Source: Nostoc sp. LPT
GTDB lineage: Bacteria > Cyanobacteriota > Cyanobacteriia > Cyanobacteriales > Nostocaceae
NCBI RefSeq assembly: GCF_017115165.1
Contig: NZ_JABXKF010000005.1
Location: forward strand, 1 to 64,000
Reading direction: 5' to 3'
Length of the DNA stretch: 64,000 nucleotides
The notes under the pieces were generated by a model. The model saw only the letters and a program-made list of their open reading frames with translations, had not been told where the DNA came from and did no database searches. How positions within the stretch are numbered: position 1 is the stretch's first letter; every line of letters begins with the position of its first letter. Position numbers and translations under genes: made by a program. Positions 24,843 to 38,863 of the stretch are shown in pieces.

Positions 24843-24922
24843 AATGCTAAATTTCCCTTGAAATTACGGAGATGAATTTGAGGTTATCTTAAGCTAAGTT
24901 AAACTCAGTGTTCCCAAAATTC

Positions 24923-26450: not shown

Positions 26451-27494
26451 ATGATTTTTTCGACCGCCATATTGAATCGTGTCGTTGCTACTTCAATGGT
26501 GACAAGTTCTGTTGCACTTAGTCCATTTTTTGGTGCGATCGCACAAGCTGAAACTCTCAATGGTGCAGGAGCAACTTTCCCAGCTCCGCTTTACGAACGC
26601 TATGCTCGTGAAGTGAAGAAGAAATATCCAGACTTGAAAATTAACTACCAAGCAATTGGTAGTGGTGGCGGTATTCGTCAAGTCATCGCCGGAACCGTTG
26701 ACTTTGGTGGTAGTGATGCTGCAATGAAAGATGATGAAATCGCTAAAGTCAAGAATGGTGCAATCTTAGTACCTACAGCAGGCGGTGCTGTTTCTGTTGT
26801 TTACAATCTTCCAGGCGTTAACAATCTCAAATTATCCCGCGCTACACTACCAGCAATTTATTCAGGTCAAATTACCAAATGGAATGACGCGAAAATTAAA
26901 GCTGATAATCCAAGTACTAATCTACCAAATCAAACAATTAAATTTGCTGTTCGTGCCGATGGTAGCGGTACAACTTTCATTTTTACGAATCACTTGAGTG
27001 CCATCAGCGGTTATTTTAAAGGCAGAGTTGGAACTAACACTGCTCCAAAATGGAATCTGCCAAATGTCCTCAAAGGCAAAGGGAATCCAGGCGTAGCTGC
27101 TATAGTAGCTCGGACTCCTGGTTCTATAGGTTATGTTGAATACAGCTACGCTGTCAAAAACAATCTGAAATCAGCACTCGTACAAAATAAGAACGGAGAA
27201 TTTGTTGCTCCTTCTTTAGAATCTGCAAATGCAGCTTTATCAACTGTCACTTTCCCAGACAACTACCGCGTTTTTATCGGAGATCCAGCACAAGGTTATC
27301 CCATTGTCGGTCTTACTTGGATGATGGTTTACAAACAGTATGCTAATGCTGCGAAAGCTGATGCAATTAAGAAATGGATTAATTGGGTATTGAAAGACGG
27401 TCAACAGTACAACGATGACCTTAACTACACCAAAATTCCATCTGATGTAGCAAATCGAGTGCTTCAGACAGTAAATAGCTCTGTCAAGCCTTAA
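26451..27494 (+). CDS. pstS: Phosphate ABC transporter substrate-binding protein
   Basis: A 347-residue periplasmic phosphate-binding protein that feeds the PstCAB transporter. A signal peptide covers about residues 1-32 (VALSPFFGAIAQAE). Typical blocks are LNGAGATFPAPLYERYA, INYQAIGSGGGIRQVIAGTVDFGGSDAA, the phosphate-binding ADGSGTTFIFTNHLS and the closing VGLTWMMVYKQY. Length matches PstS. It is the first gene of the pst locus, with a candidate Pho box upstream. A repeat element lies between it and pstC, so pstS mRNA may be partly separated from the membrane genes. Confidence 0.95.
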   Translation: MIFSTAILNRVVATSMVTSSVALSPFFGAIAQAETLNGAGATFPAPLYERYAREVKKKYPDLKINYQAIGSGGGIRQVIAGTVDFGGSDAAMKDDEIAKVKNGAILVPTAGGAVSVVYNLPGVNNLKLSRATLPAIYSGQITKWNDAKIKADNPSTNLPNQTIKFAVRADGSGTTFIFTNHLSAISGYFKGRVGTNTAPKWNLPNVLKGKGNPGVAAIVARTPGSIGYVEYSYAVKNNLKSALVQNKNGEFVAPSLESANAALSTVTFPDNYRVFIGDPAQGYPIVGLTWMMVYKQYANAAKADAIKKWINWVLKDGQQYNDDLNYTKIPSDVANRVLQTVNSSVKP

Positions 27495-27561
27495 TTTGCA
27501 ATTTTTAGAAATTACGCACAAGAGATCCCTCAATTTCCTTAAAAAGGGAAGGGTGCTTTGA

Positions 27562-27716
27562 ATATAGCAATCCTAAATGAGATTGTGAAAATTTTTGTTA
27601 TGGTCGTCTTTGGTCATTTGTCCTAAGTAAATTGCAAATAACAAAGGACAAATGACTAATGACTAATGACAGCCAACTCCAAAAATATTTCACAAATGAT
27701 TTAGGACTGCTATATA
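27562..27716. repeat. MITE-like inverted repeat between pstS and pstC
   Basis: The ends are inverted copies: ATATAGCAATCCTAAATGAG at the left and ...ATGATTTAGGACTGCTATAT at the right, about 30 bp each with few mismatches. Inside are GTCATTTGTCC and ACAAATGACTAATGACT heptamer-type repeats. A second copy, in the other orientation, lies at 47178-47394. No protein is encoded. Confidence 0.8.
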
Positions 27717-27825
27717 TCCCCCTTTTAAGAGGTTTAGGGGGATTATTTTACTACTTTCTTTCCCTAATAGACTGAGTTAAGAAGTCGCTCTACTAGTAAG
27801 AAAAAATCTATTTTATTGATTTGTA

Positions 27826-28803
27826 ATGGCAAATTTATCAGATGATTCAAATCTAGGCGATGAAAATTTCAATCTAAGTGCTACCAGCGGCACAAATTTC
27901 TGGTTTGACCAAGGTTTTACACGGCTAGTATACTTTTTTGCTGTGATTACTGTTGCAGTACTATTTTTGATGAGTTGGGTAATTTTACACGAAGCTCTAC
28001 CAGCCATCAAGCAGTTTGGAATGGGGTTTTTATGGGGACAAGATTGGGATACAGGTAATCAGATTTTTGGTGCATTACCCTATATTTATGGAACTTTGGT
28101 AAGTAGTGCGATCGCTATTTTATTTGCTGTCCCAATGGGAATGGCAGTAGCCTTAGTCACGAGTGAAAATTTTTTACCTACATCACTGCGAACCACTCTA
28201 GCATTTGTTGTTGAATTAATTGCTGCAATTCCCAGTGTAATTATTGGTTTGTGGGCGATTTTTGTCTTTATTCCAGTTCTAGAACCTCTCCAAAAGTGGC
28301 TAGCCAGCACTTTTAAATGGATACCACTATTTAATACAGAAGATCCTTCTGGGACTAATATGTTGACTGCTGGAGTTATTCTCGCGATCATGATTTTGCC
28401 CACAATGGCAGCAATTAGTCGTGATGTCTTAATGGCTATCCCTAAAGAATTACGTAGTGCATCTATGGCTTTGGGTGCAACCCGTTGGGAAACAATTTTT
28501 CGAGTCTTGCTACCATCTGGATTTTCTGGAATAGTAAGTGCAGCAATGCTTGCTTTAGGACGTGCTTTGGGTGAAACAATGGCTGTCACGATGGTGATTG
28601 GTAACTCTGCTCAAATCAGCGCTTCTTTACTTGATCCAGCTTATACAATTCCCTCTGTATTAGCTAATGAATTTGCCGAAGCTGAACCGGGTTTGCATAT
28701 AGGTGCTTTAAGCTATTTAGCATTAATTTTATTTGGGTTGACTCTAACTGTAAATATTGGTGCTGTAATCTTGGTGAAGTGGGTTGGCAGGAAAAATAAA
28801 TAA
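27826..28803 (+). CDS. pstC: Phosphate ABC transporter permease PstC
   Basis: A 325-residue inner-membrane permease with about six membrane helices. The ABC-permease loop is visible as AISRDVLMAIPKELRSASMALGATRWETIFRVLLP, which contacts the PstB ATPase. The early FGMGFLWGQDWDTGNQIFGALPYIYGTL segment is typical of PstC. The N-terminus is soluble (about 30 residues). It is followed by pstA after 74 bases. A repeat separates it from pstS. Confidence 0.94.
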   Translation: MANLSDDSNLGDENFNLSATSGTNFWFDQGFTRLVYFFAVITVAVLFLMSWVILHEALPAIKQFGMGFLWGQDWDTGNQIFGALPYIYGTLVSSAIAILFAVPMGMAVALVTSENFLPTSLRTTLAFVVELIAAIPSVIIGLWAIFVFIPVLEPLQKWLASTFKWIPLFNTEDPSGTNMLTAGVILAIMILPTMAAISRDVLMAIPKELRSASMALGATRWETIFRVLLPSGFSGIVSAAMLALGRALGETMAVTMVIGNSAQISASLLDPAYTIPSVLANEFAEAEPGLHIGALSYLALILFGLTLTVNIGAVILVKWVGRKNK

Positions 28804-28877
28804 CACTGCCTAACTTTGAACTTACTACAAATACCTCAGTTGAACAAGATGTTTATCAATCAAAATTTGTAAAAATT

Positions 28878-29759
28878 ATGAGTGGTTATATTCAGTCAGA
28901 AACAGATGAATCATTAGCGGCAGAATTATGCAGTCCTCTGCCAACAGGACGAGTAATATTTACATACGGAATGAATGCGATCGCCTTTAGTTTGACAGGT
29001 CTAATACTCATTCCTTTATTATCAATTTTGTGGGAAATTTTCATCCGGGGAATATCTGGACTCAAATCAGAAATGTTTGTCAAAGCAGTTATTGATAATG
29101 GCTTTGGCAATGCCATCCTGGGAACCATAATTATGGTGGTTATTGGTGCTATTTTAAGCATTCCCACAGGGATTATGACAGGAATTTTCTTAGCAGAATT
29201 TAGCCAAACTAATCCAGTTGCTAGTATTGTTCGTTTTGTCACTAGTATTCTTACAGGCGTGCCTTCAATTGTTGTAGGCGTATTTGCTTATGGTGTAATA
29301 GTTCTGGTAACTAAAGGATTTAGTGCGATCGCAGGTGGTTTTGCTTTAGCCGTGATTATGCTACCTGTGATTATCCTGACAACAGAAGAATCCTTAAAAC
29401 TTATTCCTATATCTCAACGCCTCGCCTCCGCTGCTTTAGGCGGAACTCGCTTCCAAACAACTTTTCGCATCATTGTGACTGCTGCAATCCCCGGAATTAC
29501 TACAGGCATTTTACTAGCTGTAGCTCGTGCTGCTGGGGAAACAGCACCTTTAATTTTTACTGCCTTATTTAGTCTAGATTGGCCAGAAGGATTGTTAAGT
29601 CCAACAGCTTCCTTGCCAGTATTGATTTTTAACCTCTACAATGACCCCGACCCACAAAAAAGCCAATTAGTATGGACTACTTCTATAGTTTTACTCAGCT
29701 TAATTTTATGTGTCAGTATTCTCTCTCGCTTAGTTATTAGACAGAGAAGAATTAAGTAA
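28878..29759 (+). CDS. pstA: Phosphate ABC transporter permease PstA
   Basis: A 293-residue permease that pairs with PstC. About six membrane helices are present, and the permease loop reads [34 protein letters not shown]. The segment [17 protein letters not shown] is the usual PstA signature. The ATG at 28878 follows pstC closely. The gene is 37 bases before pstB. Confidence 0.94.
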
Positions 29760-29796
29760 AAATAAATTTTTGTTTTATTTCGTACCTTGGGAAAGC

Positions 29797-30576
29797 ATGA
29801 GTAACCTAATTCCAGCTATTAAAGTTAAAAACATCAGCTTTTACTATGGGACAATAAAAGCTATTGAAAAGGTATCAATAGATATTTATCAGAACCAAGT
29901 AACCGCAATTATTGGCCCTAGTGGTTGTGGTAAATCTACCTTCATCAAAATTCTTAATCGCATTAGCGAATTAGAAGGGCCTGTCAAAGTTGAAGGAGAT
30001 GTAGAATTTTTTGGTCAGAATATTTACGATCCTCGTGTCAACATCAATCGGTTACGCCGCCAAATTGGTATGGTGTTCCAAAAACCAAATCCTTTTGGGA
30101 TCAGCATTTACGAAAATGTTGCCTACGGTATGAGAATAGCAGGCAGATATTCAAAATTAGAATTAGATGAAATTGTCGAATCTGCACTTCACAGCGCTGC
30201 TCTTTGGGATGAAGTTAAAGATAAGCTGGATAAATCAGCTTTAGGGCTTTCTGGTGGTCAACAACAAAGATTATGTATAGCCCGTGCTTTAGCAGTCAAG
30301 CCGAAAGTTCTACTGATGGATGAGCCTTGCTCGGCTCTTGACCCCATTGCCACCATGAAAGTTGAGGAACTGCTCCATAGTTTGCAGTCTGAGTTGACGA
30401 TTGCGATCGTTACCCACAATATGCAGCAAGCCGCTCACGTCTCTGATTTTACGGCTTTTTTTAGCACCGATGAAAGTCGGATTGGTCAAATGGTTGAATT
30501 TGGCGCTACAGAGCAAATCTTTAACAACCCACTAGACCCTCGCACCCGCGACTACATTTCAGGACGTTTCGGTTAA
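29797..30576 (+). CDS. pstB: Phosphate ABC transporter ATPase PstB
   Basis: A 259-residue ATPase that powers PstCA. Walker [10 protein letters not shown], the Q-loop Gln95 in [10 protein letters not shown], the signature [16 protein letters not shown], Walker [14 protein letters not shown] and the H-loop VTHNMQQ are all intact. I chose the ATG at 29797 ([12 protein letters not shown]), which matches the start of the second copy; a TTG-led extension from 29770 adds nine residues with no family match. It is the last gene of the pst operon proper. Confidence 0.94.
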
Positions 30577-30832
30577 GGTGTCTTCAAACGTGACTTATCG
30601 ATTTTTGTCGATCTAGCTTGCACTAGAAGATACTCATAAAATCTAGTTTAAAAAAGTTACTAATTTATCTTTATAAAAAACTAACTCCTCACTATCCATG
30701 AGGATATATGATATTGATGTTTTTCTTTATACATATATATTTTAAATCGAAATAGACCTAATCCTTTTTCATAAGCAAGGGTGCTATGTAAAAGGATGTT
30801 TTAAAAGTCATGATTGATGTATCAAATATTTT

Positions 30833-31020
30833 TTTACCCCACCCTAACCCTCCCCGATATATTGGGGAGCCACTGCGTTGGGCGGGCAACGCCCGACTTG
30901 TTCGCGCAGCGTCTCCCCTTCTCCCAAAGGGAGAGGCTAGCGCCAAGGGAGAAGCATGTGGCGTGAGGGAACCGGATTTTCTTGTTTCCCCCCAATATAT
31001 CGGGGGGATTAAGGGGGGTA
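30833..31020. repeat. MITE-like element with GC-rich nested insert
   Basis: Exact inverted copies CCCCGATATATTGGGG (30852-30867) and CCCCAATATATCGGGG (30990-31005) form the core ends, and the inverted similarity extends outward to about 35 bp. Between them is a GC-rich block (about 30862-30967) starting GGAGCCACTGCGTTGGGC and ending GTGGCG, also nested in other repeats of the window. Open frames exist on both strands but are repeat products. The rest of the pstB-pstB2 gap (30577-31272) is AT-rich without a gene. Confidence 0.75.
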
Positions 31021-31272
31021 ATAATTCGATTAAAATCACAACATACCACTTTTCAAACAACCTCTAAGTGAAGGTGCAAAAGATGAGTATAAAAAGTCTG
31101 TAAAAGAGAAATTTTGGAACACAGTCTTGATACAAATAGCTAATAACACTTTATTTGCTGTATAACTACGTAATTTCCATGAATATATCCTTTTGGGAGT
31201 AACATAGTGAAACAGCATTGCTGATTTGTACTGTTTTAGTTTGTCAAGTTTTGTTTCATACGTTTTGGGAAT

Positions 31273-32052
31273 ATGAGTAAACTAATTCCAGCCATTAGAG
31301 TCAAAAACTTCAGCTTCTATTATGAAACTAAAAAGATAGTTGAAGGCGTGTCAATGGATATTTATCAAAACCAAGTCACGGCAATTATTGGTTCTAGTGG
31401 TTGTGGGAAGTCTACTTTTCTTAAATCGTTAAATCGCATGAGTGAATTAGAAGGAGATGTGAGGGTTGAAGGAAGAGTAGAATTTTTTGGGCAGAGTATT
31501 TATGAGCGTCGTGTCAACATCAATCGTTTACGTCGCCAAGTTAGTATGGTTTTTCCCAAACCAAATCTTTTTCCCATGAGCGTTTACGATAATGTTGCTT
31601 ATGGGGTGAAATTAGTTGGATGGCATCCGAAAGTAGAATTAGATGGAATTGTTGAATCTGCCATCAAAGCTGCCGAACTTTGGGATGAAGTGAAAAATAA
31701 GCTGCACAAATCTGCTTTAGAGCTTTCTGGCGGTCAACAGCAAAGATTATGTATTGCCCGTGCTTTAGCGGTCAAGCCGAATGTTCTTTTGATGGATGAG
31801 CCTTGTTCAGGTCTCGATCCTATGGGTAGTATGAAAATCGAAAATTTGATCCATAACTTGCGTTCTGAGTTGACAATTGTAATGGTTACTCACAATATGC
31901 AGCAAGTTACTCGCCTATCTGATTTTACAGCTTTCTTTTATAGGAATGAAAATCGTACTACTCAAATGGTTGAATTTGGTACTACAAATAAAATCTTTAC
32001 TAATCCTGTGGATTCTCGCACCCGCGACTATGTTTTTGCTCGCATCATTTGA
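31273..32052 (+). CDS. pstB: Second PstB-type ATPase with altered Q-loop
   Basis: A 259-residue paralogue of the preceding pstB, aligned without gaps. Walker A GSSGCGKST, signature [17 protein letters not shown], Walker [14 protein letters not shown] and H-loop VTHNMQQ are kept. The Q-loop, which binds Mg2+ and couples to the permeases, reads MVFPKPNLFP: Pro95 replaces the Gln. The codon is CCC instead of CAA. The gene is separated from pstB by 696 bases containing a MITE-like element. It may work with reduced coupling, act as an alternative ATPase, or be on the way to loss. Confidence 0.88.
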   Translation: MSKLIPAIRVKNFSFYYETKKIVEGVSMDIYQNQVTAIIGSSGCGKSTFLKSLNRMSELEGDVRVEGRVEFFGQSIYERRVNINRLRRQVSMVFPKPNLFPMSVYDNVAYGVKLVGWHPKVELDGIVESAIKAAELWDEVKNKLHKSALELSGGQQQRLCIARALAVKPNVLLMDEPCSGLDPMGSMKIENLIHNLRSELTIVMVTHNMQQVTRLSDFTAFFYRNENRTTQMVEFGTTNKIFTNPVDSRTRDYVFARII

Positions 32053-32238
32053 AGTGTTTCTTAAATTATAGCCATTCAGATGGTTACTATATGGTGCAAT
32101 TGGAAATGAGGGGTTAAATCGAATTTCCGCTTGCTTTAAGTTTTTCTGGTGTCGGGCAATGCGATCTAATATTGACAGTATTTTTTTATACTATATATTT
32201 AAAGAGAAGTATTTGCTTTAGACCACCTGAATCATAAA

Positions 32239-33525
32239 ATGAAATGTCCCCGGTGCGAATCTACTTCATATCGTAAAAATGGTCGTCGGAATGACAAGCA
32301 GAATTACCTCTGCAAAAATTGTGGTAAGCAATTCCTCGAGCCTGCATTCCCTGCTTCCCTAGAAACTGACTTGCTTGCTAACAGCAACGGATATACTAAA
32401 GTATCTACATCTGAAGCGACGGAACTTTCTTTAGTAAAAAACCTGTCAGAAGAAAAAATCACGGAGAAAAGTCTTGGCTCTTTTAGTTTGACATTAGCTG
32501 AACAACTGCTGCAAATTATATTATCGCCTGCTTGGTTAGAATCTGCTGCATTCAGCCAATTTATCCAAAAATTTCAACAAAAAACTGAAATAAAACATCA
32601 ATTAGAAACAGGAATATCTCTTCTACTTTTGGATGCAGAGAACTTAAAATTAGATGTTAATTCAGAATTATTTTTAGCTAGTGTCTGCAAGTATCCTCTC
32701 CAATTTAAAATGGCATTTGCTAACTGGAGAAATCCAAGTATTGGAAAGCAAGATATTGAACTATATAATCGTGGCTATCAACTTGTCCACGTACCAGAGG
32801 GTAAGGATAGTGCTGATGCAAAAATGATCGCTTTTGGTGCTTGTGTTTCACGCTCTTATCCAACAGTTAAAGAAATATTAGTCTGTTCTAACGATGGAAT
32901 TTTAATTCACCTCTGTAACGAACTCCAAAACCAAGGATTAATTGTCTATTGGGTACGTAGACAAGGGCAAACTTTACATATAGAGAACCGGAATACTGGC
33001 AAATTAACTCATTATTCTTTGGCAATGGCAACAGAAGTTCCATCCTTGGAAAAAGTGGTTGAGCAAATTCAAGACTTAATTAAAAACGAACAAGATTCTA
33101 TTAATACTCGATTACACAGTTTAGCAACTATTGCAAATTTATTTCAAGAAAGATCCAATATCAATAATAAATCTAATCCTAAGCAAACAGAAATTGAAGA
33201 AATTATCACTATTAGAGATGATTCACCTGCACAATCTATTCAAGAACAAGAAAAAGAAGATTCTGCGGAAATTCCTAATGAAAAAATATTAAATAAATTA
33301 CTATTAAAAATTATTCAAGATATACAAACAAAGTCTCCCCAAACTAAATTATCTGTGTCTAAACTAGGTTCAGAGTTACGGAAAATAACCGGAGAGTCTC
33401 CTAATTCGATTATTAAAAAATTAAAATTAGGTTCTAATTTTACCAAATATTTAGAATCATCTCCCACATTTACATTAAAAATGAGTGGCAAGGAATATGA
33501 GGTAATTCCGCTACTCTCCGAATAG
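32239..33525 (+). CDS. Zinc ribbon - NYN nuclease - LOTUS (OST-HTH) domain protein
   Basis: A 428-residue protein with an unusual domain order. Residues 1-35 are a four-cysteine zinc ribbon (CPRC at 3-6, CKNC at 25-28) like the N-terminus of IS1-type transposase InsA. Residues about 120-265 form an NYN domain, a PIN-like RNase fold, with the expected acidic residues: Asp132 and Asn135 in LLLLDAENL, Asp190 and Asp193 in EGKDSADAKM, and Asp219 in VCSNDGILI. After a charged linker (about 290-345), residues 345-425 read as a LOTUS/OST-HTH domain (KLSVSKLGSELRKITGE ... FTKYLESSPTFTLK). LOTUS domains bind RNA or act as adaptors. A role in RNA cleavage or silencing is inferred from the folds. It stands alone. 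Confidence 0.75.
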   Translation: MKCPRCESTSYRKNGRRNDKQNYLCKNCGKQFLEPAFPASLETDLLANSNGYTKVSTSEATELSLVKNLSEEKITEKSLGSFSLTLAEQLLQIILSPAWLESAAFSQFIQKFQQKTEIKHQLETGISLLLLDAENLKLDVNSELFLASVCKYPLQFKMAFANWRNPSIGKQDIELYNRGYQLVHVPEGKDSADAKMIAFGACVSRSYPTVKEILVCSNDGILIHLCNELQNQGLIVYWVRRQGQTLHIENRNTGKLTHYSLAMATEVPSLEKVVEQIQDLIKNEQDSINTRLHSLATIANLFQERSNINNKSNPKQTEIEEIITIRDDSPAQSIQEQEKEDSAEIPNEKILNKLLLKIIQDIQTKSPQTKLSVSKLGSELRKITGESPNSIIKKLKLGSNFTKYLESSPTFTLKMSGKEYEVIPLLSE

Positions 33526-33606: not shown

Positions 33607-34311
33607 ATGCAGGATAAAGTTGTTGTTATTGTCGGTGCTACTGGTGGTATTGGTTCAGCTCTAACACAAAAACTTGCGCCTACCGAAGTCCAGTTGGTAC
33701 TGGCTGCCAGAGATGCTGTTCGTTTAACAAAACTGGCAGATGATTTACCAAGGCAAGTTTTGAGCGTTCCCACTGATATTACTGACCCCCAACAGGTAGA
33801 TACTTTGATCAAAAAGACCATCGCTGAGTTTGGTCAAATCGATATTTTAGTGAATGCAGCTGGTGCTGGTATACTCAAGCCCTACAACAGCCTAGAACCC
33901 GCTGATTTAGACAAGATGTTAGATGTCAACTTAAAAGGTAGCTTTTACACTACTCAGGCGGCTGCTGAAGAGATGCAAAAGCGCAAGTCTGGTCACATCT
34001 GTAATGTGGTAGGAATTCTGGGCAAGCATTCGATGGGGATGGCCACAGCTTATTCGGCTTCTAAGTTTGGTGTTGTCGGTTTTAGCAAGTGCATGGCAGA
34101 GGAACTCAAGCGTTTTGGTATCAAGTTCACGCTATTCTACTTTGGTGGGGTAGATTCTCCTTTCTGGGATAACGTCAACCTAAAAGTAGACCGAAAAAAA
34201 ATGCTTAGTCCTGAAACTGCTGCCAATGCGATTTTCTTTGCCCTTTCTGCCGAACCACAAGCTGTGCCAATGGAAATTAACATTCAACCTGATAGTCATT
34301 TGTTCTTTTAG
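33607..34311 (+). CDS. Short-chain dehydrogenase/reductase
   Basis: A 234-residue NAD(P)-dependent oxidoreductase. The nucleotide-binding motif is VIVGATGGIGSAL (TGxxxGxG), the NAG-type motif is VNAAGAGIL, and the catalytic residues are Tyr and Lys in YSASKFGVVGFSK. The start at the ATG 33607 leaves four residues before the first strand, as in many classical SDRs. The substrate is not indicated. It is upstream of the HPPD-like gene by 106 bases on the same strand, and the two may be co-transcribed. Confidence 0.88.
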   Translation: MQDKVVVIVGATGGIGSALTQKLAPTEVQLVLAARDAVRLTKLADDLPRQVLSVPTDITDPQQVDTLIKKTIAEFGQIDILVNAAGAGILKPYNSLEPADLDKMLDVNLKGSFYTTQAAAEEMQKRKSGHICNVVGILGKHSMGMATAYSASKFGVVGFSKCMAEELKRFGIKFTLFYFGGVDSPFWDNVNLKVDRKKMLSPETAANAIFFALSAEPQAVPMEINIQPDSHLFF

Positions 34312-34417: not shown

Positions 34418-35515
34418 ATGAAAATTGATCACGTTCATTTCTATGTAGAAGACGCCAAAATGTGGCGGGATTGGTTTGTACGCCATCTTGGTTTTCAAGC
34501 AGTAACCGATCGCATTAGTTCATTTCACACTTGTACAGAAGTGGTGAAAAGTGGTGATGTCTGCTTTTTTTTATCTTCACCACTGTTGCCTACAAGTCCA
34601 GTAGCTGAATTTCTGCGGCAATATCCACCTGGTGTGGCAGATGTCGCTTTTGTTGTCGAAGATGTCGAAGGCGCGATCGCCCTAGCTCAAAAATACGGTG
34701 CTACAATCCTACAACCCATCCAGGAACGCCAAGAGGGTAAGGCATTCATCAAATGTGGCAAAATTGCCGCCTGGGGTGGATTGACTCATACATTGATAGA
34801 AAGGTCATTAGTCAGTGGTCATTTGTCATTGGTTTTTGACAAAGGACAAATGACTAATGACAAAAGACAAATGACAAATGACAACACTTTTACCGCCATA
34901 GATCACGTAGTTCTGAACGTGGCAGTTGGTGAATTGGATCGTGCTGTGGCTTGGTACGAAAAAATCCTAGATTTTCAACCCCAGCAAGCATTTAAAATTA
35001 AAACCAATCGCTCTGCTTTACACAGCCAGGTGATGGTTTCGCGCAATGGTAGCGTTCAATTGCCCATTAATGAGCCAGCTACCAAGAATTCTCAAATTCA
35101 GGAGTTTCTTGATGTCAATCGGGGGCCAGGAATTCAACATATTGCCTTGCGGACGACTAATCTTGTGAGTGCGATCGCCAAATTTCGTGCCAGTGGTTTA
35201 TCTTTACTCTCAGTTCCTCAAACCTACTACTCGCAGCTAAAACAGCGTCCAGGAATCACGCTATCACCTCTAGAACTAGAAGCGATCGCTCAACAGGAAA
35301 TTCTGGTGGACTGGCAAGAAGATACTCCCGCAGAAGGAGGAAATGCCGCACCCTTATTACTACAAATTTTCACCCAGCCAATATTTGAACAGCCGACATT
35401 TTTCTTTGAGTTTATTGAACGCCGTTTCCAAGCTCAAGGTTTTGGCGAAGGTAACTTTCGCGCCTTATTTGAAGCCATTGAAAGCGAACAAATCAAACGC
35501 GGTACTTTGCAATGA
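34418..35515 (+). CDS. 4-hydroxyphenylpyruvate dioxygenase-like protein
   Basis: A 365-residue protein of the two-domain VOC fold, like HPPD, which makes homogentisate for tocopherol/plastoquinone-type pathways. The iron ligands are visible: His in AIDHVVLNV, His in GPGIQHIALRT and Glu in FFFEFIERRF. The N-terminal VOC half begins MKIDHVHFYVEDAKMW. Between the two halves, about residues 129-155 are coded by a genomic repeat (SLVSGHLSLVFDKGQMTNDK...), inserted in frame. The linker position suggests it is tolerated. Its 3' end overlaps the GNAT gene by 4 bases. Hydroxymandelate synthase, a close relative, is the main alternative. Confidence 0.83.
   Translation: MKIDHVHFYVEDAKMWRDWFVRHLGFQAVTDRISSFHTCTEVVKSGDVCFFLSSPLLPTSPVAEFLRQYPPGVADVAFVVEDVEGAIALAQKYGATILQPIQERQEGKAFIKCGKIAAWGGLTHTLIERSLVSGHLSLVFDKGQMTNDKRQMTNDNTFTAIDHVVLNVAVGELDRAVAWYEKILDFQPQQAFKIKTNRSALHSQVMVSRNGSVQLPINEPATKNSQIQEFLDVNRGPGIQHIALRTTNLVSAIAKFRASGLSLLSVPQTYYSQLKQRPGITLSPLELEAIAQQEILVDWQEDTPAEGGNAAPLLLQIFTQPIFEQPTFFFEFIERRFQAQGFGEGNFRALFEAIESEQIKRGTLQ
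34803..34883 (+). repeat. Palindromic heptamer repeat inside the HPPD-like gene
   Basis: TCATTAGTCAGTGGTCATTTG is answered by GACAAATGACTAATGAC with AAATGAC copies after it. The stretch can fold on itself and matches intergenic repeats at 27620-27670, 50020-50065 and 51806-51940. Its length, 81 bases, is a multiple of three and it has no stop in the coding frame. Confidence 0.85.
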
Positions 35516-37494: not shown

Positions 37495-38137
37495 GGGAGT
37501 TTGTTACTTCAGCCTCAATCAGCGGCAGTCTTTTATCGAATAAAAAACAGCTTTAGGTTTTATTTTGATCGAAACTAAAGTCTCGACCTATTTATATGCC
37601 CTACCAGGATAGTAGCACGGGTTAGTTTGATCGACTTTGTAATTTCAACTATAGTCACTTTAACATATTGCTATAACTCCGTGTATACCCTCATGTCGTT
37701 GTCTAATTCTGGCTTTAATCTAGAATTTGAACGGAGAGTACCTAAAATTCATGGTTTTTATGAAAAAATCAACTTTACTGTTTCAAATTTGGCAACTTAC
37801 TGTGCCCTAAAAGATTTTTTTTTAATTATACTGAATAATCGCTTGTGGTATATATCCACATATCGATTTAAAATTGAAACGTTTTAAGTTACCACCTAAC
37901 TGGGATCAAGAAGGTGTCTTGTTATCAAGAACGGTTGCAGTTAAAGTCAGAGCGCTTATATACTGTTGGCTAATAGAAGTTTCGCCTTCTGATTGCCCAC
38001 AATCCTGATTAAAGTATTTATTTTTGAACGATCGGGATTCTTATACCGTAGCCATGTAGATTCTTAGTTAGTCCCAAAGTGGCAACTGCGTTTTTACGCA
38101 ACTCTCTTGTTAATCTTACGAATTTTTGTGCAAAGTA
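37495..38137. other. Intergenic region upstream of the response regulator
   Basis: No convincing gene. A frame of 86 codons from a TTG at 37627 is open, but it has no ribosome binding site and its composition is poor for protein. TTTAAAATTG and AT-rich blocks lie at about 37780-37890, and GTTAATCTTACGAATTTTTG comes before the regulator's start. No clear repeat is seen. Confidence 0.4.
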
Positions 38138-38863
38138 ATGGTCATGGCTCCTGCCAAGATTCTTGTTGTTGACGACGACCCTGCGGTTCGGAATTTAATC
38201 CAACGCTTTTTGATTAAACAGAACTATCAGGTGGAGGCTGCCGAAGATGGAAAGACAGCCTTAACTCTATTTGAGCAATTTAACCCTGATTTGGTGATTC
38301 TAGATGTGAATTTACCAGATGTCACAGGGTTTAACCTCTGCCAAGAGATGCAAAGTCGTAATGGTGTTTTTGTTTTGATGTTGACTAGCCGTGCTGACGA
38401 AGCTGATAAAATTCGCGGCTTTGCTAAAGGTGCTGACGACTATCTCACCAAACCTTTTGGGCTAGGAGAGCTAGAAGTCCGAGTTGGAGCTATTTTGAGG
38501 CGTCAGCGAGTGATAACTACGACCGAGCAGAAACGTTTGGTATTTGAAAAACTTATGATCGATCCAGTGCGACGGGAGGTAGCACTTAATAACCAAGCAG
38601 TACCTTTAACTGCTCTGGAATTTGACTTGTTGCATTTTTTAGCTAGTCATCCAGGTCGAGTTTGGCGGCGGGCAGAACTAATCCAAGAGGTGTGGGACTA
38701 TGAATATGTCGGCGACCAGCGGGTTGTAGATGTTCATATCGGCCAAATTCGCAAGAAGATTGAAATTGATGCTAGTCAGCCAGCATTAATTCAAACTGTA
38801 CGTGGCGTAGGTTATAAGTTTGAATCTGCTGCTCACCCTCAGCAGTTGGAAGGCAAGTCCTGA
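38138..38863 (+). CDS. OmpR-family two-component response regulator
   Basis: A 241-residue transcription regulator from the ATG at 38138 (the ATG at 38144 is also possible; a TTG at 38126 adds four residues). The receiver domain has ILVVDDDPAVRNL, phospho-acceptor Asp in VILDVNLPDVTGF and Lys in DDYLTKPFGLGEL. The winged helix is at about 145-240 (LTALEFDLLHFLASHPGRVWRRAELI, VHIGQIRKKIE, IQTVRGVGYKF). No partner kinase gene is adjacent, so it is an orphan regulator in this window. It resembles cyanobacterial regulators of the NblR/RpaB kind in general layout, but I cannot say which. Confidence 0.9.
   Translation: MVMAPAKILVVDDDPAVRNLIQRFLIKQNYQVEAAEDGKTALTLFEQFNPDLVILDVNLPDVTGFNLCQEMQSRNGVFVLMLTSRADEADKIRGFAKGADDYLTKPFGLGELEVRVGAILRRQRVITTTEQKRLVFEKLMIDPVRREVALNNQAVPLTALEFDLLHFLASHPGRVWRRAELIQEVWDYEYVGDQRVVDVHIGQIRKKIEIDASQPALIQTVRGVGYKFESAAHPQQLEGKS

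Follow-up and report, generated by a model that had tools for sequence, protein, structure and literature searches.

What does a cyanobacterium do with a gene that joins a transposase-type zinc ribbon to a nuclease and a LOTUS domain? The question is raised by a 64,000-nucleotide stretch of the Nostoc sp. LPT genome (hereafter the window), in which one gene encodes such a protein. We believe, with a probability of about 0.6, that the product works as a single-chain, metal-dependent RNA endonuclease, encoded on the chromosome and belonging to the NYN-LOTUS kind (LK-nuclease plus OST-HTH), which would choose particular RNAs for decay or processing. The gene and its parts are as follows.

32239..33525, plus strand: zinc ribbon-NYN-LOTUS gene, an open reading frame (ORF) of 428 amino acids (aa)
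32239..32340, plus strand: four-cysteine zinc ribbon of the IS1/IS1595 type, residues 1-34 (Cys3, Cys6, Cys25, and Cys28), identified by domain model, structure confidence, and cysteine conservation
32470..32598, plus strand: helical segment, residues 78-120 (predicted helices 78-94 and 103-120), a possible remnant of the N-terminal domain of a ribbonless paralogue
32608..33036, plus strand: NYN nuclease domain, residues 124-266, with D132, D193, and D219, and also E134, N135, and D172
33046..33174, plus strand: long helix, residues 270-312, which in alignment falls on the beginning of the ribbonless paralogue's first LOTUS region
33277..33516, plus strand: LOTUS (OST-HTH) winged-helix domain, residues 347-426

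Domain architecture and active site

The middle of the protein has a PIN-like NYN fold as well as a match to the NYN profile, which places it in that superfamily. In a Foldseek comparison with the PDB, only two matches reached E<=0.001, and both were NYN domains of MARF1, with an identity of 12-15%. The C-terminal domain, when modelled alone, adopts a winged-helix fold whose best matches are LOTUS domains. PDB searches by sequence (with the protein, the whole profile, and the C-terminal profile) returned no NYN or LOTUS entry, whereas the fold comparison did find them. A nuclease followed by a LOTUS domain within a single chain is the layout of the LK-nuclease plus OST-HTH, or bacterial MARF1-like, class. 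An initial annotation of this gene had named the ribbon, the NYN domain, and the LOTUS domain in this order, and profile and fold matches bear out both the domains and the order; we checked whether the middle segment might lack an NYN/PIN fold or the C-terminus a LOTUS fold, and both folds were matched. Its overall interpretation survives in these points, in the likeness of the ribbon to InsA, and in an RNA-directed role, the last being supported by family membership; rarity and defence find no support, and one catalytic residue is wrong.

That residue is Asp190, which the initial annotation had listed along with Asp132 and Asp219. Across 44 aligned relatives, position 190 varies (24 N, 19 D, one S), and the correct residue is Asp193: D132, E134, N135, D172, D193, and D219 are invariant in all 44, so that the NYN domain has a conserved acidic metal site. 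In human MARF1, an active enzyme, the acidic site is given as D358, D426, D427, and D452 (PMC6294520), and we take D132, D193, and D219 to match it, a likeness by description rather than by residue-by-residue superposition. It is the domain and fold matches, the MARF1 matches in Foldseek, and the three acids invariant in 44 of 44 relatives that lead us to an RNA endonuclease. In the mechanism we propose, RNA would be cleaved by the NYN domain through a metal bound at D132, D193, and D219. The LOTUS domain would serve to bind RNA or a partner, and the ribbon, presumably binding zinc, would provide a second nucleic-acid contact; together, the ribbon and the LOTUS domain may pick out particular RNAs for decay or processing.

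The ribbon and the nuclease are the most constrained parts of the protein. Among 36 sequences, the median pairwise ratio of nonsynonymous to synonymous substitution (dN/dS) is 0.17 for the ribbon, 0.15 for the NYN domain, 0.34 for the LOTUS domain, and 0.52 and 0.49 for the linkers, the pairs being non-independent and the broken or cut copies (L048, L052, L077, and L080) excluded.

A ribbon of the transposase type

The ribbon scores 48 bits against the NCBIfam domain model NF050000 (cut-off 28) with all four cysteines present, residues 1-30 form a block with a predicted local distance difference test (pLDDT) score of 85-88, and all four cysteines are retained in 36 of 36 aligned sequences. The likeness to InsA of IS1 is thus supported by the ribbon sequence, by the spacing of the four cysteines, and by NF050000. 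There is no match to a full IS1 transposase: NF033558 gives 33 bits against a cut-off of 100 and covers positions 1-34 of 199 only.

The same ribbon type is found in the transposase-like ORFs L175, L176, L178, L180, and L181. It also occurs at the C-terminus of other cyanobacterial proteins: on the TetR-family regulators L173, L177, and L179 (Pfam TetR_N and TetR_C_15), the last of which belongs to the window's own genome (G000:C132:39636-39737); behind regions 2 and 4 of a sigma70-like protein (L169:357-1502); and on the proteins of L165, L166, L168, and L170. In L165, L168, and L170, the ribbon is accompanied by a lysine-rich tail containing KKxKGFG or KKAKGFG; at E<=0.001, Pfam gives nothing for these three proteins apart from zinc-ribbon-type or TackOD1 matches at the ribbon itself.

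Taken together, the cyanobacterial proteins suggest that regulators have recruited IS1-type ribbons more than once. Over 32 residues, 77 ribbons of NYN proteins have a mean identity of 0.69 to one another, of 0.56-0.62 to six ribbons that carry a TetR label (backed by Pfam in three of the six), and of 0.48-0.62 to five transposase-type ribbons; they were compared by identity only, 32 columns being too few for a tree. An origin of the ribbon in a transposase is accordingly something that we infer from family membership, and not a traced event.

Two lineages and their distribution

Two paralogous forms of this gene exist. The ribbonless form consists of a helical N-terminal region, the NYN domain, and two LOTUS regions; in the ribbon form, the first LOTUS region is truncated relative to it. 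A search of genome contigs found 242 confirmed relatives, the best 80 of which gave 78 named loci, and all 78 are cyanobacterial by title, which does not imply absence elsewhere. For tree building, 137 NYN cores were reduced to 77 by an identity limit of 88%. A first fast tree of the 77 rows gave a Shimodaira-Hasegawa-like approximate likelihood ratio test (SH-aLRT) value of 80 for the branch between ribbon and ribbonless forms, with long branches present. In a careful, midpoint-rooted tree of 71 rows, 39 ribbon-lineage and 32 ribbonless rows stand on opposite sides of one branch with a support of 98/99. Dropped from it were L077 (contig end), L080 (broken copy), and the long-branch L158-L161; these last are the most distant ribbonless proteins, and the ribbonless side is thus less well tested. 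Among the 39 ribbon-lineage rows, 34 have the four cysteines, L130 has a diverged ribbon, and four have lost cysteines, these four being placed here since they fell inside the ribbon lineage in the first fast tree.

In 18 of the 78 loci, the stretch fetched holds both lineages. In some the two copies are close together (L084, L087-L090, L095, and L111, in the last 1.6 kb apart), and in 11 they flank the phosphate transporter genes pstSCAB (L098, L102, L104-L107, L112, L113, L116, L117, and L121). These neighbouring pairs, the tree split, the truncated first LOTUS region, and a likeness of residues 84-114 to the ribbonless N-terminal domain lead us to think that the ribbon form probably arose by replacement of the start of a ribbonless gene. 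As for the likeness, comparison with 11 proteins gave two that exceed all 300 shuffles (z 7.1 and 7.2), one with z 6.4 that was equalled by a shuffle, and eight with little or no signal (z -0.1 to 3.0). In other words, a ribbonless NYN-LOTUS-LOTUS gene was probably duplicated, and in one copy the first ~70 residues would have been replaced by an IS1-transposase-type ribbon, the same copy losing the greater part of its first LOTUS region.

This architecture occurs widely among filamentous cyanobacteria, with the nearest named relatives of the present protein in Nostoc. Among 386 sampled cyanobacterial genomes, 77 have a match at E<=1e-6, some of these being matches to the ribbon only, for example in transposase ORFs. 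At E<=1e-15, a member is present in 125 of the 192 genomes of the window's family, mostly as one match per genome. The ribbon form is present in 39 of these carriers, while the 86 others, and also G472, carry the form without an aligned ribbon, a few of the ribbonless counts being short NYN-only matches. G472 is the only carrier clearly with both forms (G430 has a ribbonless gene and a ribbon-form fragment at a contig end). With the ribbon form in 39 of 125 carriers and both forms clearly present in only one, the two may substitute for each other. In the window's genus, 27 of 28 listed genomes have the ribbon form; in a further genome of the genus (L017, G009:C103), only the C-terminal 104 residues, the LOTUS part, are matched, in an open frame of 124 aa. 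Plasmids gave 13 matched records, one with a partial NYN match and 12 in which the match begins at the ribbon. The three-domain order, which had been called unusual, emerges from the taxonomic survey as a common and apparently uncharacterised cyanobacterial architecture.

Cutting enzyme or binding adaptor

Several observations weigh against an RNA endonuclease of this kind and against the history proposed for it. The second acid of the canonical SGDxD is absent; the motif III of the 44 aligned relatives is CSxD followed by L, I, A, or G at +2 (CSxDx[LIAG]), so that one of two motif-III acids is missing, and four aligned other NYN proteins of the same genome do have SGDxD. Of the seven NYN matches in the genome, that of this protein scores lowest, with 29.5 bits to PF01936. 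The LOTUS model PF12872 scores 11 bits in the whole protein, under the Pfam cut-off of 23.8, and 15 bits in the isolated domain, and a genome-wide search with it at E<=0.1 gave nothing, missing the protein's own LOTUS domain too. The ribbon-lineage copy is without the four cysteines in five loci (L111-L113, L116, and L117), each with a ribbonless copy nearby, and four of the 27 copies in the genus contain stops or are split (G505, G536, G537, and G539), possibly in part through assembly errors; it follows that neither the ribbon nor the gene is essential everywhere. Finally, the remnant of the N-terminal domain is clear in only two of 11 comparisons, and the direction of the ribbon change is read from the architecture and a midpoint-rooted tree, not from an outgroup.

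As to the LOTUS model, the relatives P0182 and P0186 carry PF12872 in precomputed annotation. Bearing on the long helix (residues 270-312), the model matches P0125 weakly at residues 265-302, and the L015 protein likewise at 292-325. The five loci with lost cysteines comprise three of Tychonema, one labelled Richelia, and one metagenome-assembled genome labelled Cyanobacteria.

The missing acid leads to the alternative that survives best, namely a non-cutting adaptor that binds RNA or DNA, in which the NYN fold would be kept for binding and the protein would be a regulator, a part that the ribbon may also play where it is joined to TetR or sigma-like proteins. The loss of this acid across all 44 relatives suits such a protein, and so does the presence of the same ribbon type on cyanobacterial TetR regulators and on a sigma70-like protein. 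Against it stand the six invariant residues D132, D193, D219, E134, N135, and D172. Moreover, in the site listed for the active MARF1 (PMC6294520), one Asp, D452, is what we take as motif III, the motif assignment being ours; because MARF1 is active with D358, D426, D427, and D452, the missing acid does not rule out catalysis. We regard the adaptor as a doubtful, though not negligible, alternative.

Gene neighbourhood

The neighbouring genes raise a second alternative. The window has, all on the same strand, the order pstS-C-A-B-B, NYN gene, SDR, HPPD, GNAT, and HAD, with a CPP1 gene also among the neighbours.

26451..32052, plus strand: pst phosphate transporter genes (pstS, pstC, pstA, and two pstB), upstream neighbours
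32172..32199, plus strand: promoter-like TTGACA-16-TATATT just upstream of the gene, with 11 of 12 consensus matches
33607..34311, plus strand: short-chain dehydrogenase (SDR), 81 bp downstream
34418..35515, plus strand: 4-hydroxyphenylpyruvate dioxygenase (HPPD), TIGR01263 340 bits

The pst cluster has two pstB-type ATPase genes (29770-30576 and 31273-32052), the second of which ends 186 bp before the NYN gene. SDR lies directly downstream in 30 of 30 loci (L047-L076), and was not found in L078, L079, L083, and L084. In 40 loci, hand-picked across the phylum and with identity floors set gene by gene, raw counts within 10 kb give 23 loci with HPPD on the same strand, 24 with SDR or HPPD, eight with pstB together with pstC, and 15 with none of the tracked genes, some of these ended by contig ends.

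An RNase of the pst locus could recycle RNA phosphate as a phosphate-starvation factor. Besides pstSCAB, which stands immediately upstream in the window and separates the two NYN lineages in 11 of 78 loci, the eight chosen loci with pstB and pstC speak for it; in the other 32 there is no pst linkage in the fetched stretch, and linkage to SDR or HPPD is commoner. A Pho-box scan upstream of the NYN gene reached a best score of 15 (random stretches: 95th and 99th percentiles both 15, maximum 17), which gives no clear site, the scan being a weak test in that pstS itself scores only 13. The best triple of the eleven upstream stretches scored 16 (99th percentile 15), on the minus strand upstream of the ORF at 24908. 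The NYN gene also has its own promoter-like site, the best of 32 in the 10 kb scanned, a total no higher than in shuffles (28.9, sd 4.2). In an alignment of 37 upstream regions, the window's included, this site is retained in most close Nostoc relatives and not in more distant ones. A phosphate-starvation role thus seems improbable.

Defence and mobile elements

NYN/PIN nucleases are common in conflict systems, and a defence role had been suggested as possible for this gene at the outset. Checks with PADLOC, the neighbourhood, phage records, and viral contigs gave nothing specific. The protein matches no PADLOC family at E<=10; eight of ten neighbours are without a match, the pstB neighbour gives generic ATPase cross-matches, and 38126-38860 of the window matches 61 residues of SduA (33.5 bits) and PDC-M60B. 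No relative was found in phage records, none of 67 pattern matches in viral contigs was confirmed, and the plasmid records contributed only the one partial NYN match. Most carriers in the window's family have a single match per genome. Because the recurrent neighbours are phosphate-uptake and metabolic genes and the search of phage records and viral contigs turned up no relative, defence is unsupported, and we consider it highly improbable. Also highly improbable is a domesticated guard, a parallel of MARF1 (whose loss reportedly lets retrotransposon RNA accumulate in oocytes), in which a ribbon caught from an IS1-type transposase would still recognise element ends or transcripts and the nuclease would destroy transposon RNA; if true, the ribbons on TetR and sigma-like proteins would be part of one common recognition module.

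Comparison with known systems

An RNA endonuclease of the NYN-LOTUS kind is thus our preferred reading, and its outline is not new: fusions of a nuclease with LOTUS in bacteria, and the likelihood that they degrade RNA, were set out in 2010. What is new is the IS1-type ribbon lineage, the fact that within the window's family it and the ribbonless paralogue almost exclude each other, and the recurrent SDR-HPPD/pst neighbourhood. We recognised no paper on the ribbon-NYN-LOTUS architecture in the openly available literature, and found no characterised bacterial NYN-LOTUS protein in the literature searched. Since the two paralogues coexist in some cyanobacteria and seemingly replace each other in others, they form a natural experiment, in which swapping or deleting the ribbon in laboratory cyanobacteria could show what a transposase-type ribbon contributes to a putative RNase.

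The genome has six other NYN ORFs, which we take to be LabA-like proteins of the same superfamily. Five of them encode 175-273 aa and the sixth 515 aa; they differ in their higher PF01936 scores (78-121 bits), and no ribbon match falls on them. The IS1/IS1595 transposases share the InsA-type N-terminal ribbon in sequence and four-cysteine spacing, whereas the present protein has no transposase match past the ribbon. Npun_R1332, an NYN gene strongly induced in alkane-overproducing Nostoc punctiforme, adjoins ribonuclease 3 (PMC7660261); from this location, and not from sequence, we take it to be a different gene.

The closest counterparts are the bacterial proteins described in 2010 by Anantharaman, Zhang and Aravind (PMC2848206), in which an LK-nuclease (DUF88/NYN) is joined to OST-HTH. 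They share with ours an NYN-superfamily nuclease and one or two LOTUS domains in a single chain, they were suggested to be standalone RNA-degrading enzymes, and no conserved neighbourhood with known RNA-processing systems was reported for them. The present protein differs in its N-terminal IS1-type ribbon and truncated first LOTUS region, and its family in the recurrent SDR-HPPD, and sometimes pst, neighbourhood; fusions of LK-nuclease with a Zn-knuckle are also mentioned there, and may or may not include it. MARF1 (limkain b1) of animals combines the same nuclease and LOTUS parts; its NYN identity is 12-15%, and no IS1 ribbon is reported for it in the description used. The bacterial NYN-LOTUS proteins were proposed in 2010 as relatives of this animal protein, which acts in RNA decay in egg cells and was later shown to cut RNA.
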